Source of the DNA: Pseudochrobactrum kiredjianiae
Lineage (GTDB): Bacteria > Pseudomonadota > Alphaproteobacteria > Rhizobiales > Rhizobiaceae
Reading direction: 5' to 3'
Assembly: GCF_030362795.1 (NCBI RefSeq)
Contig: NZ_JAUCBM010000007.1
Span: forward strand, 62,001-126,000
Length of the DNA: 64,000 nt
The translations under genes and the position numbers were made by a program. Each line of letters begins with the position of its first letter. Positions within the stretch are counted from its first letter, which is position 1. Below the pieces are notes generated by a model that worked only from the letters and a program-made list of their open reading frames with translations, was not told where the DNA came from and searched no databases. This document shows, one piece after another, positions 4,270 through 48,412 of this stretch.

Positions 4270-5127
4270 TTATCGTGTGCGGCTCAGACCATCTTTGGCC
4301 GGCTTATATTGCGGATCAAGCTGCACAGCACGGGCATAGGAGGCCGCTGCACGCTTTTTATCGCCACGATGCTCATAGACCAGCGCCTGATTGGCCCAGC
4401 TCTCAGCAACCTTGTCATCCAGCCCGATAGCCGTATTGAAATCATCAAAGGCGTTATCGTAATCGCCAAGTGCCGCATAGGAAATCCCGCGGCCATTATA
4501 AGGCTCTGGCGCATTCGACTGGAGGGAGGCAGCAGCCGAGAAATCCTCAATCGCCTGTTTGTGCTGGCCACGTGCCTGATAAATCAGACCGCGATTGTGA
4601 TAGGCACGGCCATCCGTCGTATCCAGCTGGATGGCGCGGTTGAAATCCAACATCGCCTCATCCAGACGCCCTGCCTGACGATACACATTACCACGACCGG
4701 TATAGGCCGCATCATATTGCGGATTGATCTGAATGGCGCGGCTGTAATCCTGTACGGCCGCTGCATCATTTTTCAGATAGCGCTGAATAAGCGCGCGATT
4801 GGCATAGGCCTGATAATAATTCGGGTCGAGCTGGATCGCTGTATCAAAATCCTTCATCGCCTCACGGTAGCGCCCTGCCTTACCATAGGCAGAGCCACGC
4901 ACATTATAGCTCTCAGGATTACGCGGATTGCTCTGAATAACCGTTGTCAGCGAACCGATATTCTCGCTGGAGCCCTGCGCCAGATCGACAGGTGTGAGAA
5001 TGGAATTGGAAGTGCTCTGACAGCCCGCAAGAGCCAAAACTGCGCAGGATGCTGCACCCAGCACCATATTGCGCCAAAACCGGCGCGGCTCTTGTCGCGT
5101 CAGATTTACACTCACCAAAGATGCCAT
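4270..5127 (-). CDS. TPR-repeat lipoprotein
   Basis: 285 residues beginning MASLVSVNLTRQEPRRFW, with a hydrophobic stretch and a lipobox LAGC (Cys36), so it should be exported and lipid-anchored. From about residue 65 to 275 it consists of at least six consecutive tetratricopeptide units of 34 residues; the recurring pattern is AYxNRGxxYxxxGxxxxAixDFxxAIxLDP. This resembles NlpI-type lipoproteins that scaffold envelope proteins such as peptidoglycan hydrolases, but the exact partner is not evident. A long open frame on the opposite strand (4309-5214) is a by-product of the repeat composition. It has its own terminator and no operon partner. Confidence 0.85.
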   Translation of the reverse strand: MASLVSVNLTRQEPRRFWRNMVLGAASCAVLALAGCQSTSNSILTPVDLAQGSSENIGSLTTVIQSNPRNPESYNVRGSAYGKAGRYREAMKDFDTAIQLDPNYYQAYANRALIQRYLKNDAAAVQDYSRAIQINPQYDAAYTGRGNVYRQAGRLDEAMLDFNRAIQLDTTDGRAYHNRGLIYQARGQHKQAIEDFSAAASLQSNAPEPYNGRGISYAALGDYDNAFDDFNTAIGLDDKVAESWANQALVYEHRGDKKRAAASYARAVQLDPQYKPAKDGLSRTR

Positions 5128-27698: not shown

Positions 27699-28847
27699 AT
27701 GAGCAATAGCCCAGCAGCAGATCAGGTTGCGACCCAAGCAACTGAATTTCCTAAAATTCCGGTAACAGTTCTGACCGGTTATCTCGGCTCCGGTAAAACC
27801 ACCCTGCTCAACCGTATTCTCAGCGAAAACCACGGCAAACGCTATGCTGTGATTGTCAATGAATTCGGTGAAATCGGCATTGATAATGATCTCATCGTCG
27901 AGTCCGACGAAGAAATCTATGAAATGAACAATGGCTGCATCTGCTGCACCGTGCGCGGCGACCTGATCCGCGTGGTTGAAGGCCTGATGCGTCGTCCTGG
28001 TCGTTTTGATGCGATTATCGTCGAGACCACCGGTCTTGCTGATCCGGTGCCGGTTGCCCAGACATTCTTCATGGATGATGATGTGCGCGCCAAGACCCAG
28101 CTTGATGCTGTGGTTGCCCTCGTCGATGCCAAGCATCTGCCACTGCGCCTGAAAGACAGTCAGGAAGCTGAAGACCAGATCGCTTTTGCCGATGTGGTTC
28201 TGCTGAACAAAACTGATCTGGTGAATGCGCAGGAACTTACCCATGTGGAAGCCACCATCCGCGCCATCAACCCGCATGCCATTATTCACCGTACCCAGCG
28301 CGCAGAAATTGACCTGACCAAAGTGCTGGATCGCGGTGCTTTTGATCTGAAACGTGCGCTCGATAATGATCCGCATTTCCTCGACCATGATCATCCAGAT
28401 CATGTTTGCGGCCCTGACTGCGATCATGACCACGGGCACGACCACAAGCATGACCATGGACATCATCACGACCATGACCACCATCACCACGATCATACTT
28501 GCGGTCCTGACTGTAACCACGGACACGACCATGGGCATGCTTCAGCCATTCACGACGTTACCGTTATGTCTGTCTCTTTGCGCACCGGTGAACTGGATGC
28601 TGCAAAATTCTTCCCGTGGATTCAGAATGTAACGCAGGTGCAAGGCCCAGACATTCTGCGTCTTAAAGGCATTATTGCCTTTGCCGAGGATGATGACCGC
28701 TACGTGGTGCAAGGCGTGCATATGATTATCGAAGGCGATCACCAGCGTCCGTGGAAAGAGGGCGAAAAACGCGAAAGCCGTCTGGTCTTTATCGGCCGTA
28801 ATCTGAACGAGCAGGCACTGCGTTCCGGCTTCGAGAAATGTAAATAA
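27699..28847 (+). CDS. COG0523/CobW-family metal GTPase with His-rich insert
   Basis: 382 residues. G3E GTPase of the metallochaperone group: Walker [10 protein letters not shown] (27-35), CxCC metal site (Cys80, Cys82, Cys83 in [13 protein letters not shown]), [18 protein letters not shown], then after about residue 225 a histidine/aspartate-rich stretch holding two CGPDC motifs, and a C-terminal CobW_C domain ([19 protein letters not shown]). Such proteins deliver zinc or another divalent metal under starvation or to cobalt/nitrile-hydratase type enzymes. The next gene starts two bases after the stop. No cobalamin genes are nearby, so a zinc role is more likely than CobW proper. Confidence 0.88.
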
Positions 28848-41449: not shown

Positions 41450-42304
41450 ATGTCCCAACTTGATCTGTCAGCTCTCGAAAAAATTATCACAAAAGCTTTT
41501 GATGAGCGCGACACAGTGTCGGTATCAACCACCGGAGAAATCCGTGATGCCGTCGCACAATCCCTGTTGTTGCTTGATCAGGGCAAAGTACGCGTTGCTG
41601 AAAAACAAGCCGACGGCAACTGGACGGTCAATCAATGGCTGAAAAAAGCAGTGCTGCTTTCATTCCGTCTCAACCCGATGGAAATCATCAAAGGTGGCCC
41701 TGGTGAATCCGTCTGGTGGGACAAAGTGGCTTCCAAATTTGACGGCTGGTCTGCGAATGAATTTACGCAAGCCGGTTTCCGCGCTGTACCAAACTGCGTT
41801 GTTCGTCACTCCGCTTATATTGCGCCAAATGCCATTCTGATGCCGTCTTTTGTCAATCTTGGCGCTTATGTCGGTGAAGGTACTATGGTGGATACATGGG
41901 CAACTGTCGGCTCCTGCGCGCAGATCGGTAAGAATGTGCATCTATCCGGCGGTGTTGGCATCGGCGGCGTGCTTGAGCCATTACAGGCCGAGCCAACCAT
42001 CATCGAAGACAACTGCTTTATCGGCGCACGCTCTGAAGTTGTAGAAGGCTGCATCATCCGTGAAGGTTCCGTGCTGGGTATGGGCGTCTATATCGGTAAA
42101 TCCACCAAGATCGTCGATCGTGCGACCGGCGAAGTGTTCTATGGCGAGGTTCCACCTTACTCGGTGGTTGTTGCCGGTACGATGCCGGGTAAAAATGTCC
42201 CGGGCGAAAACTGGGGCCCAAGCCTGTATTGCGCAGTTATCGTCAAGCGCGTTGATGAAAAAACCCGTTCAAAAACCTCGATCAATGATCTGCTGCGCGA
42301 CTAA
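41450..42304 (+). CDS. dapD: 2,3,4,5-tetrahydropyridine-2,6-dicarboxylate N-succinyltransferase
   Basis: 284 residues, ATG with GGAG upstream. Lysine/diaminopimelate pathway enzyme transferring succinyl from succinyl-CoA. N-terminal helical domain (residues 1-100) and a left-handed beta helix with hexapeptide repeats ([38 protein letters not shown]). Conserved [34 protein letters not shown]. dapE continues the succinylase branch but lies 1.4 kb further, separated by the small-gene array. Confidence 0.97.
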
Positions 42305-42326: not shown

Positions 42327-42357
42327 AAAAGCGACAGGCTTCAAGCCTGTCGCTTTT
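42327..42357. terminator. Terminator after dapD, shared with the small-gene array
   Basis: AGCGACAGGCT/AGCCTGTCGCT with TCA loop, A-run left, TTTTT right. Confidence 0.9.
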
Positions 42358-42379: not shown

Positions 42380-42595
42380 TTAGCGACGTGTGCTTGCAGG
42401 TGAATGATCATCAAAACCATTGGCTGAGCCATCTGAATAAGTGGTAGGCTGTGTGCTTTTAAGGGTGAAGTTAGCAGCGACTGGTGTTGTATCATTGCCA
42501 TAAAGGTTATCCGGAGTACCCACATTTGGGTTTTCAGCCATAGCAACACCGGCAGTCATAGCAAGAGCGGCAATAGTCAAAGCAATCTTTTTCAT
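42380..42595 (-). CDS. Small exported protein, array copy 1
   Basis: 71 residues from the ATG at 42595 with AAGGAAGA upstream. MKKIALTIAALAMTAGVAMA is a signal peptide cut after AMA; the mature part ENPNVGTPDNLYGNDTTPVAANFTLK then STQPTTYSDGSANGFDDHS is about 51 residues, polar, Asn/Thr/Asp/Gly-rich and without cysteine. Possibly in the DUF680 group of small Rhizobiales proteins, but I am unsure. Farthest from the array's promoter and the most diverged copy (about 70% identical to copy 2). Confidence 0.7.
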   Translation of the reverse strand: MKKIALTIAALAMTAGVAMAENPNVGTPDNLYGNDTTPVAANFTLKSTQPTTYSDGSANGFDDHSPASTRR

Positions 42596-42717
42596 TTCAA
42601 TCTTCCTTTTTAGGTGCCGTTCATTCTGGTCAGGACGCTTGGGAGGTCTGTCTTGGTACACTTCAGAATGAGCGGCAAATCATCTTCATTAAATACTCAG
42701 TAAAATTACCGGCCTGA

Positions 42718-42933
42718 TTAGCGGTTGTAGCTGGATGGTGAATTGTCACCAAAACCATTGGCAGAACCGTCAGTATAGGTATTAGGCGCAGTGCTCTTCA
42801 CAGTGGATGTTGTAACCACTGGCGTCTGATCCTTGCCATAGAGATCAGCTGGCGTGCCCACATTTGGATTATCGGCAAGAGCCACACCGGCAGTCATGGT
42901 GAGAGCAGCAACAGTCAAAATAATCTTTTTCAT
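42718..42933 (-). CDS. Small exported protein, array copy 2
   Basis: 71 residues from the ATG at 42933 with AAGGAAGA upstream (a longer frame starting at 42999 includes spacer sequence). Signal peptide MKKIILTVAALTMTAGVALA, then DNPNVGTPADLYGKDQTPVV and the C terminus SANGFGDNSPSSYNR. Differs from copy 3 at four residues. No enzymatic motif; probably a secreted or periplasmic structural or stress protein. Confidence 0.7.
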   Translation of the reverse strand: MKKIILTVAALTMTAGVALADNPNVGTPADLYGKDQTPVVTTSTVKSTAPNTYTDGSANGFGDNSPSSYNR

Positions 42934-43055
42934 TTCAATCTTCCTTTTTAGGTGCCGTTCACTCTGGTCAGGACGCTTGGGAGGTCTGTCTTGGTACACT
43001 TCAGAATGAGCGGCAGATCATCTTCATATAATACGCAGTAAAATTATCGGCCTGA

Positions 43056-43271
43056 TTAGCGGTTGTAGCTGGATGGTGAATTGTCACCAAAACCATTGGC
43101 AGAACCGTCAGTATAAGTATTAGGCGCAGTGCTCTTCACAGTGGATGTTGTCACCACCGGTGTCTGGTCATTGCCATAGAGATTGTCCGGTGTGCCCACA
43201 TTTGGATTATCGGCAAGAGCTACACCGGCAGTCATGGTAAGAGCAGCAATAGTCAAAATAATCTTTTTCAT
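43056..43271 (-). CDS. Small exported protein, array copy 3 (first transcribed)
   Basis: 71 residues from the ATG at 43271, chosen because AAGGAA lies seven bases before it; an ATG two codons upstream is too close to that site. Signal peptide MKKIILTIAALTMTAGVALA and mature DNPNVGTPDNLYGNDQTPVV. Its upstream region differs from the spacers of the other copies and probably holds the promoter for the array, reading away from dapE. Confidence 0.7.
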   Translation of the reverse strand: MKKIILTIAALTMTAGVALADNPNVGTPDNLYGNDQTPVVTTSTVKSTAPNTYTDGSANGFGDNSPSSYNR

Positions 43272-43686
43272 TTTCATATTCCTTGTTCAACTTATGTGAA
43301 CGTGCTTGGGAGGAGCGCCGTTCCGATGAACATGAGATATGCCTGATTGTTTATGATTTCAACTCACGTAAATTTTACGAAAATTACAAATTTAGAACAC
43401 ATTTCCACAAATGTTTAAATCTTTAATCTAAATTGATAAACAATTACAGTAATTTAGCTGAAAAGATTTTACAATTTCTCAAAAAATCGTCCTTAATCGT
43501 TCGCAAATAGCAAACGATCTGTATCTCTTATAGTTCACAAAATGAAGACAATGACACTTTTCTCACGGAAATATTACCATTTGAAAGAGTCCGTTTATTG
43601 CGCGAAAAACACATTACCGTGAGAAGTTGAGAGCCAGAACGGAAATTCCGGATGCACCGGTAATCGGCATCTGCTAAGCCTTCATT
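43272..43686. other. AT-rich divergent region between the small-gene array and dapE
   Basis: 415 bases, very AT-rich between 43350 and 43580. It must contain the array promoter and the dapE promoter. No genes or repeat copies seen; no confident -35/-10 pair. Confidence 0.5.
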
Positions 43687-44874
43687 ATGATGACCACATT
43701 TGATCCCGCAGAAAATCTCGCCGCTCTGATCCGCTGCCCGTCTGTTACGCCGGCAGAAGGCGGAGCCCTTACCGCTCTTCAGTCAATGCTGGAGCCGCTC
43801 GGCTTCCATATAGACCGTCCTGTGTTTACCGCAGAGGGGACGCCGGATATAGAAAATCTCTATGCCCGCCTGACCGGAACCGGCCCTCACCTGATGTTTG
43901 CCGGCCATACAGATGTGGTGCCGACAGGTGATTTATCGCTCTGGAAACATCCACCTTTTGGCGCGGTCATCGATAATGGCGAGCTTTATGGCCGTGGCGC
44001 AGTGGATATGAAAGGCGGCATCGCCTGCTTTGTTGCGGCAACAGCGCGTTACTTGCAAAAGTTTCCTGACCGCAAACCTAATATTTCATTCCTGATTACC
44101 GGTGATGAAGAAGGTCCCGCTATTAACGGCACAGTCAAAGTGCTGGAATGGGCGAAAGCTAAGGGCGAAAAATGGGATGCCTCACTGGTTGGCGAGCCAA
44201 CTAATCCTGATCGTCTGGGTGAAGCAATCAAGATCGGCCGCCGCGGTTCAGTCACCGGTACGGTTATTGTTCATGGCACACAGGGTCATGTCGCCTATCC
44301 GCATAATGCCGATAATCCCGTGCGCGGTATTATGGCACTGCTGAACAGCCTGCTGATACCGGCTTATGATCAGGGCACTGAGAATTTTCAGGCAACCAAC
44401 CTCGAAATCACTTCGATTGACGTCGGCAATCCGGCCACTAATGTTATTCCGGCCAAAGCAACCGCTTCATTCAATATCCGCTTTAATGACACATGGACTG
44501 CAGACAGCCTGCAACAGGAAGTCTCGCGCCGTTTACAAGAAGCAGCGCTGAACAGCCCGTTCAGACAAGGCAAAGCTGAGCCGGTCAATTATGAATTGAT
44601 CTGGGGTGAAGATCCAAGCCATGTGTTTTTGACCCGCAATGACAAGCTGATTGATGCACTCAATGGCTCGATCAAAGCAGTGACAGGCAAACAGGCAGCG
44701 CTTTCGACTTCCGGCGGCACATCCGATGCCCGTTTCATCAAGGATTATTGCCCTGTTGTGGAGTTCGGCCTTGTTGGTCAGACTATGCATATGGCCAATG
44801 AGCGCACATCGCTGCGCGACCTTGAAAATCTCACTGCAATTTATGAAAAATTCCTTGAGGACTTTTTCGCCTGA
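43687..44874 (+). CDS. dapE: Succinyl-diaminopimelate desuccinylase
   Basis: 395 residues; the start is ATG at 43687 or 43690. Zn-dependent M20 peptidase-like enzyme removing succinate in the lysine/DAP pathway. Visible: [22 protein letters not shown] (His ligand and Asp), [14 protein letters not shown] (Asp bridging ligand), [13 protein letters not shown] (Glu general base plus Glu ligand), [13 protein letters not shown] and the late [13 protein letters not shown] with the last His ligand. A dimerisation domain occupies about residues 180-290. A hairpin follows the stop and a conserved membrane-protein gene comes next. Confidence 0.96.
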
Positions 44875-47878: not shown

Positions 47879-48412
47879 TCAGATTTTTTTGGCCGCTGCC
47901 GGCTCATGGGTCTTGGCCAGTTTTTTGAATTTCTTGATCACCATATCCCGCTTCAGCTTGGAAATATGATCAATGAACAACACACCATCCAGATGATCAA
48001 TTTCATGCTGCAGACAAGTGGCCATCAGACCTTCAGCCTTGATTTCCTGCGGTTTGCCTTCAATATCCTGATAGGTCACACGCACAGTCGCAGGGCGTTC
48101 CACTTCCGCATAATAATCAGGGATCGACAAACAACCCTCTTCATAAGAACTCGGCTCATCTGAGCGCTCAACCACCACCGGATTGATAAAGACATGCGGC
48201 TCCGGCGCTTCACCCTCTTTAGCCAGATCAATCACAACCATGCGGATCGGCTCGGCCACTTGAATTGCAGCCAGCCCGATACCCGGCGCATCATACATCG
48301 TGGCAAACATATCAGCGGAGAATTTACGCAAATCCGCATCAAAGCGTTCAACCGGTTTTGAAACCTGACGTAAAACCGGATCAGGAAGAAAAATAATCGG
48401 CTTAATGGTCAT
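47879..48412 (-). CDS. def: Peptide deformylase
   Basis: 177 residues from the ATG at 48412 ([16 protein letters not shown]); an upstream in-frame ATG would add 21 unconserved residues. Metal protease with the three family motifs [18 protein letters not shown] and [17 protein letters not shown], that is Cys, two His and catalytic Glu. Removes N-formyl from nascent proteins. First gene of the minus-strand def-fmt-GNAT-truA group; Lys-rich C terminus. Confidence 0.96.

Follow-up and report, generated by a model that had tools for sequence, protein, structure and literature searches.

The gene array between dapD and dapE

The window, that is, the whole stretch of 64,000 nucleotides analysed here, belongs to the 4.46-Mb assembly of Pseudochrobactrum kiredjianiae, labelled G000 below. 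It carries three small genes, named A, B and C in their order of transcription, which are separated by two spacers and flanked by dapD and dapE on the opposite strand. The features of the region are the following:

41450-42304, plus strand: dapD, flanking the array
42327-42357, minus strand: terminator-like stem-loop 3' of gene C and ahead of the dapD 3' end (1 found, shuffle mean 1.0)
42380-42595, minus strand: gene C, last copy, 71 aa; clusters with its last-copy counterparts in G005 and G001
42596-42717, minus strand: spacer B-C, 122 bp, 116/122 identical to spacer A-B
42616-42676, minus strand: predicted hairpin in spacer B-C, fold z -3.23, with CCUCCCAA at 42639-42646
42718-42933, minus strand: gene B, copy 2, 71 aa; probable recent duplicate of A (202/216 nt)
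42934-43055, minus strand: spacer A-B, 122 bp, 116/122 identical to spacer B-C
42954-43014, minus strand: predicted hairpin in spacer A-B, fold z -2.43, with CCUCCCAA at 42977-42984
43056-43271, minus strand: gene A, copy 1, the first to be transcribed, 71-aa ORF with a signal-peptide-like start, conserved in relatives (the ORF list gives an ATG start at 43277)
43298-43323, minus strand: small predicted stem GAACG/CGUUC around CUCCUCCCAAGC in the first leader, with CCUCCCAA at 43306-43313
43299-43324, minus strand: GGAAC-N17-CGTT, match to an EcfG-type motif, overlapping the first-leader stem
43335-43363, minus strand: GTTGAA-N16-CATATCT, RpoH-like promoter candidate with three mismatches
43687-44874, plus strand: dapE, flanking the array

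The spacing from gene start to gene start is 338 bp in both cases and TRF reports a 338-bp array with a score of 1322, which shows that the array is not due to chance. The ORFs and TRF thus agree with a previous interpretation made from the letters alone (the sequence-only reading), which had described three 71-residue genes repeated at an exact 338-bp period on the strand opposite to dapD and dapE.

Each array protein has 71 residues and begins with MKKI...AxA in the manner of a signal peptide, suggesting that it is exported. Some 50 residues follow the signal peptide and finish with a conserved DGSA..F.D..P. Neither Pfam nor NCBIfam gave the array proteins a match above its cut-off, the weak lines beginning at the signal peptide, and no DUF1127 line was found in Pfam scans of the three window proteins and five relatives at E values up to 1. 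Two protein queries found no match in plasmid records. The AlphaFold model (mean pLDDT 52.3, pTM 0.15) has one helix at residues 4-20, and its low confidence throughout is compatible with, and no proof of, a disordered mature part.

The array is present in six of the seven genomes of the genus, that of the window included, and gave no match in G002, which is 61% complete. The same locus has three copies in G001 and G004 and two in G003 and G005, with periods of 337-344 bp. The G006 assembly breaks inside the array (L025/L026, at the ends of contigs C13 and C8) so that its copy number is not readable. Note that a record titled Bacillus subtilis (L029, JAHREI010000007.1) contains a Pseudochrobactrum-type array with 83% protein identity and is probably mislabelled. 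Elsewhere in the window, short tandem repeats CGACCATGACCACGGACACCACCA and GACCATGAACACCATCAC at 28421-28487 could encode a His/Asp-rich stretch.

Duplication history of the 338-bp unit

Tandem gene arrays can change by unequal crossing-over. Duplication of a gene together with its following spacer makes A like B and spacer A-B like spacer B-C, while C stays as different as before. The duplicated unit being gene plus spacer, the proper test pairs the A and B genes with the two spacers. Genes A and B differ at 14 of 216 positions and the spacers at 6 of 122 (Fisher p = 0.64). The 122 bp upstream of gene A, on the other hand, match the two spacers at merely 36/122 and 35/122 positions. The sequence-only reading was correct on the identity of the 122-bp spacers, about 95%, but these are two and not three; its figure of about 70% for the proteins holds for B and C (~69%, 50/72 codons, stop counted) and not for A and B (94%, 68/72 codons, stop counted).

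The same reading had proposed stronger selection or conversion on the spacers than on the genes, whose product would be diversifying. It finds its argument in the B/C comparison (157/216 identical positions in the genes against 116/122 in the spacers, p = 1e-7), and the contrast arises solely from setting the spacers against B/C, or A/C (161/216), instead of A/B (202/216). The other three-copy genomes behave as G000 does, spacer identity following that of genes 1 and 2 and not that of genes 2 and 3: the spacers, genes 1-2 and genes 2-3 are 95%, 94% and 73% identical in G000, 79%, 83% and 74% in G001, and 94%, 92% and 76% in G004. Between species the spacers are mostly more diverged than the genes (46-80% against 62-86% identity), with 93-94% and 93%, respectively, in the near pair G004/G006. 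The dN/dS ratios are 0.025/0.218 (0.11) for A-B and 0.203/1.117 (0.18) for B-C, values below 0.2 that reveal purifying selection on the array genes. Stronger selection on the spacer was rejected on three grounds, namely the A/B comparison, the arrays of G001 and G004 and the identities between species, and diversifying selection on the product because of both dN/dS ratios, leaving that proposal scarcely credible. Within the duplicated unit, the divergence of spacer and coding parts is equal.

The gene and spacer trees, which have support below 95 on several branches, pair copies 1 and 2 within G000 and within G001, and likewise the spacers of each of these two genomes. Copies 1 and 2 of G004 group together with the first copy of G003, and the G004 spacers are as near to those of G006 as to one another. 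Two groups consist of last copies, one from G000, G001 and G005 (97/96) and the other from G004 and G006 (100/99). Most likely, the 338-bp unit of gene and spacer grew by unequal crossing-over or conversion, with A, B and the two spacers as recent duplicates and C as the older last copy. That the similarity stems from duplication or conversion, the latter also put forward in the sequence-only reading, is borne out by identities and trees in G000 and its relatives. The array has in common with other tandem arrays shaped by unequal crossing-over that related species carry two or three copies per locus and that duplicates are nearest within genomes; it shows no difference from them, and this part of its history is ordinary. 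The case illustrates that, when copies in a tandem array of one genome are compared, the duplicated unit must set the frame in which their identity is read.

Spacer hairpins and their loop motif in other genera

All nine Pseudochrobactrum spacers are predicted to form a hairpin of 58-62 nt that starts 77-81 nt ahead of the next ATG and exposes CCUCCCA, the CCTCCCA of the DNA lying 50-51 nt ahead of that ATG. Their fold energy is below that of dinucleotide shuffles in 9/9 cases (z -2.43 to -4.13); two first-leader sequences, with z 0.32 and -0.60, do not stand out from their shuffles. In the spacer alignment A3, 83.7% of the cells of the stated structure are paired as compared to 25-42% when the structure is slid, and both sides have changed in 4 of 15 pairs. 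Of 500 shuffles, one attains the covariation score of A3; double-change pairs (159/500 shuffles) and pair types (417/500) occur in ordinary numbers, and RNAalifold gives the spacers a weak consensus (-6.2 kcal/mol). Support for the predicted hairpin is good from energy and moderate from covariation. The CUCCCA core is found 42-51 nt ahead of the ATG before each Pseudochrobactrum gene seen (CTCCCA in 15/15 regions), the first leaders included (6/6), and CUCCUCCC occurs in the first leaders of G000, G001 and G005 only.

A covariance model built on the spacer hairpin (R1) was applied to seven genomes and recovers its nine source spacers (E up to 1.6e-13); the next best match elsewhere in the seven has E 0.6 and none is in G022, with 150 of the 264-440 first-look candidates scored per genome. 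The model finds array spacers alone, so that the link between genera rests on the loop and its setting and not on stem homology.

The protein profile matches 17 of 199 genomes from the GTDB family, which represent 10 of 109 genera. Among these 17, five (G018, G034, G103, G156, G176) have partial hits alone, at or near the signal peptide. Ten of 14 loci from other genera are runs of two to five genes and four are a single gene. Leaders and spacers were compared in 48 regions of six genera (15 from Pseudochrobactrum and 33 from these 14 loci), a set that leaves out the five genomes with partial hits, further hits such as G080:C5, G171:C4 and G217:C1, and L028. CCTCCCA, tied with CTCCCAA, is the top 7-mer: it is present in 24 of the 48 regions and in four genera, as compared to a mean of 0.64 and a maximum of four in shuffles. 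The top 8-mer, CCTCCCAA, is present in 20/48 regions, also from four genera. When hexamers are ranked by number of genera, AAGGAA, a ribosome-site word, comes first (5 genera, 22 regions) ahead of CTCCCA (4 genera, 28 regions). By genus, CCTCCCA and its core CTCCCA are found, respectively, in 12/15 and 15/15 regions of g1, 4/11 and 5/11 of g17, 2/7 and 2/7 of g75, and 6/11 and 6/11 of g100; g103 (0/1) and g117 (0/3) lack even the core. The motif was picked after inspection and the regions of one genus are related to each other, so that the independent weight is that of four genera with unlike stems.

Examples of these stems are found in L113 (UCGGAAGGGC / GCCCUUCCGA around CUUCCUCCCAAAC) and L107 (GGCCGG / CCGGCC around AACCCUCCCAAGC), and L109 has two such predicted hairpins within a single spacer. 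The g100 motif is situated just 3' of a strong hairpin, outside the hairpin itself. CUCCCA has a mean predicted unpaired probability of 0.83 against 0.42 for the other C residues of the same stretches, the difference having the same sign at all 30 sites (p = 9e-10); 194 C-rich hexamers taken as control reach 0.44. A strict test places 12 of the 30 CUCCCA sites in an apical loop, and the windows around the sites have z < -2 in 13/30 and z < -1 in 23/30 cases. The sequence-only reading had envisaged a shared RNA element in the spacers. The predicted structure is present and its CCUCCCA loop recurs in other genera, in agreement with such an element, although it is the relatives that provide the evidence and not the identity within the genome.

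Both strands of the whole of G000 together contain 42 occurrences of CCTCCCAA (30 in the control), three of them in the array and three in its two RNAs of the ar14 family (see below); among the 30 sites listed as loci many are in or opposite long ORFs. Note that palindromic repeats (CTAGTGG...CCACTAG) are inserted between the two array genes of G022 (L027, ~4500-4770), where Rfam gives a weak BASRCI408 line under the gathering score.

Possible outputs of the array and related RNA systems

Genes A, B and C probably form a small operon of near-identical exported proteins, read as one transcript, and the first leader has two candidates for a putative stress promoter. The RpoH-like element at 43335-43363 was compared to the RpoH1 consensus CTTGAA-N16-CCTATAT given in PMC8844928. 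Matches with three mismatches number 15 in the window against 12.5 expected and the element is not significant alone; its position is conserved in 6/6 first leaders and, by eye, an element at similar spacing is seen in most g17 first leaders, L111 and L113. The EcfG-type motif, GGAAC-N16/17-CGTT (a motif of such type appears in PMC6599016), is found at 43299-43324 and in 6/6 first leaders, with 0.85 matches expected by chance in the window. It was set back as main reading of the promoter: the GGAAC..CGTT letters double as the first-leader stem, the CGTT is not kept in G022 and the motif shows no genome-wide enrichment (64 against 97 in the control). Separately, a NepR gene with a divergent ORF, which we take to be phyR, is found at L061 (G000:C6, near 47882-47986), where GGAAC-N16-CGTT precedes the putative phyR and also a small membrane-protein ORF behind it.

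The reading that accounts best for these observations, to which a probability slightly short of even is given, is that of an operon made up of genes for small exported proteins in alternation with cuckoo-like hairpins that act in trans. Its transcript would have two outputs, the proteins and the anti-Shine-Dalgarno hairpins. The CUCCCA element before each Pseudochrobactrum gene is predicted to be exposed and, in the spacers, to be part of a clear hairpin. The hairpins, whole or after processing, could target other mRNAs by pairing to their GGGAGG/GGAGG ribosome-binding sites. The g17 element is found in most spacers and in 0/5 first leaders, near the preceding stop (39-95 nt) and far from the next ATG (111-402 nt), and is doubled in one L109 spacer, which fits an RNA derived from a UTR. 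Against the two-output reading speak, together with the limits given above for the choice of the motif, hexamer ranking, apical loops, window z values, the g100 motif and covariation, the 24 of 48 regions without CCTCCCA, the Pseudochrobactrum first leaders that fold like shuffles, and the absence of an Rfam ar14 match at the array. Nor was avoidance of GGAG/GAGG at the array ribosome sites seen in a rough comparison based on first-ATG starts (11/49, against 11/52 in window ORFs and 14/72 in flanking ORFs).

The hairpins might instead be cis-acting leaders, each CCUCCC hairpin controlling just the gene behind it. Such a hairpin could offer a binding place to an RNA that carries GGGAG or to an RNA-binding protein, or could be a processing or stability element that sets the translation of each cistron. 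Action in cis is favoured by the distance to the ATG, which is nearly fixed in Pseudochrobactrum. The element is also found in first leaders of g1, L111 and L113, no gene preceding it in the latter two, and, in g100 spacers, about 25 nt ahead of the ATG. The g17 loci, with their long distance to the next gene, doubled element and first leaders devoid of it, are difficult to accommodate, and action in cis is considered possible and rather unlikely. It is improbable that the spacers are ordinary intergenic DNA with no RNA function, whose hairpins and C-rich words come from shared leader ancestry, transcription pausing or chance: half of the 48 regions without the motif and the moderate covariation would agree with this, but the excess of CCTCCCA over shuffles in four genera with unlike stems, the consistent exposure of the CUCCCA core and its persistence in spacers otherwise 46-80% identical between most species would not.

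The two-output reading can be extended, as a tentative proposal that is on balance doubtful, to a kind of locus present in a group of Hyphomicrobiales: tandem genes for exported proteins, each with a cuckoo-like hairpin, in which gain and loss of units by unequal crossing-over would tune the dose of a periplasmic protein and of a trans-acting RNA. If this is true, a change of copy number in the array would alter the dose of regulatory RNA, and close species do differ in having two or three copies.

The literature search found no description of such arrays; it did not extend to the 2015 cuckoo paper, so an earlier description is possible. A search for membership of the array in an Rfam family found nothing credible: ar14 (RF02344) has no line at the array region or the regions of its relatives, and ar15 (AbcR) is not among the Rfam lines listed for them. 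G000 has two ar14 RNAs of its own over the Rfam cut-off, L120 (C1:558903-559018) and L121 (C2:310951-311072); L120 carries the ar14 loops CCUCCUCCCAA and CCUCCUCCCAG, and the loops CUCCUCCUCCCAA, CUCCUCCUCCCAG and CUCCUCCCCC.

Hairpins of the cuckoo/ar14 RNAs (SmelA075/SmelA099, NfeR1; RF02344) combine a CCUCCUCCC loop with divergent stems (PMC3927594; PMC10746234). The array resembles them in keeping an anti-Shine-Dalgarno loop while the stems vary. Its CUCCCA is identical to the 3' portion of the loop of cuckoo, CCUCCUCCCA, and it has CCUCCCA/G in common with the CCUCCUCCCAA/G loops of the ar14 RNA of G000 itself. It differs in that its spacers have CCUCCCA instead of CCUCCUCCC, that its hairpins are single and placed inside a protein operon, and that the ar14 model does not match it. 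AbcR1/2 (ar15) share with the array an exposed CUCCCA, which is predicted in the array and, in the Brucella AbcR described in PMC5461406, is the M1 motif of the first hairpin that serves pairing to and regulation of target mRNAs. The AbcR are, in contrast, free-standing sRNAs, and between their hairpins they carry GUUCCC as a second motif. PMC10746234 and PMC5461406 make NfeR1 and AbcR precedents for loops of this type acting on ribosome sites.

The CIN1 locus of Rhodobacter sphaeroides (ccaF1, a DUF1127 gene, with CcsR1-4) is likewise composed of a small-protein gene and several C-rich UTR hairpin RNAs and is a precedent for hairpin RNAs cut from the UTR of such a gene; the published ones are stress-linked. 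The array differs by the signal peptide of its protein, by the lack of a DUF1127 match and by the alternation of gene and hairpin. Having no match to ar14 by model or full motif and no CIN1 protein, it is regarded as a variant. If its hairpins do pair with ribosome-binding sites, the cuckoo theme would reach a second protein family, beyond free sRNAs and DUF1127 loci.
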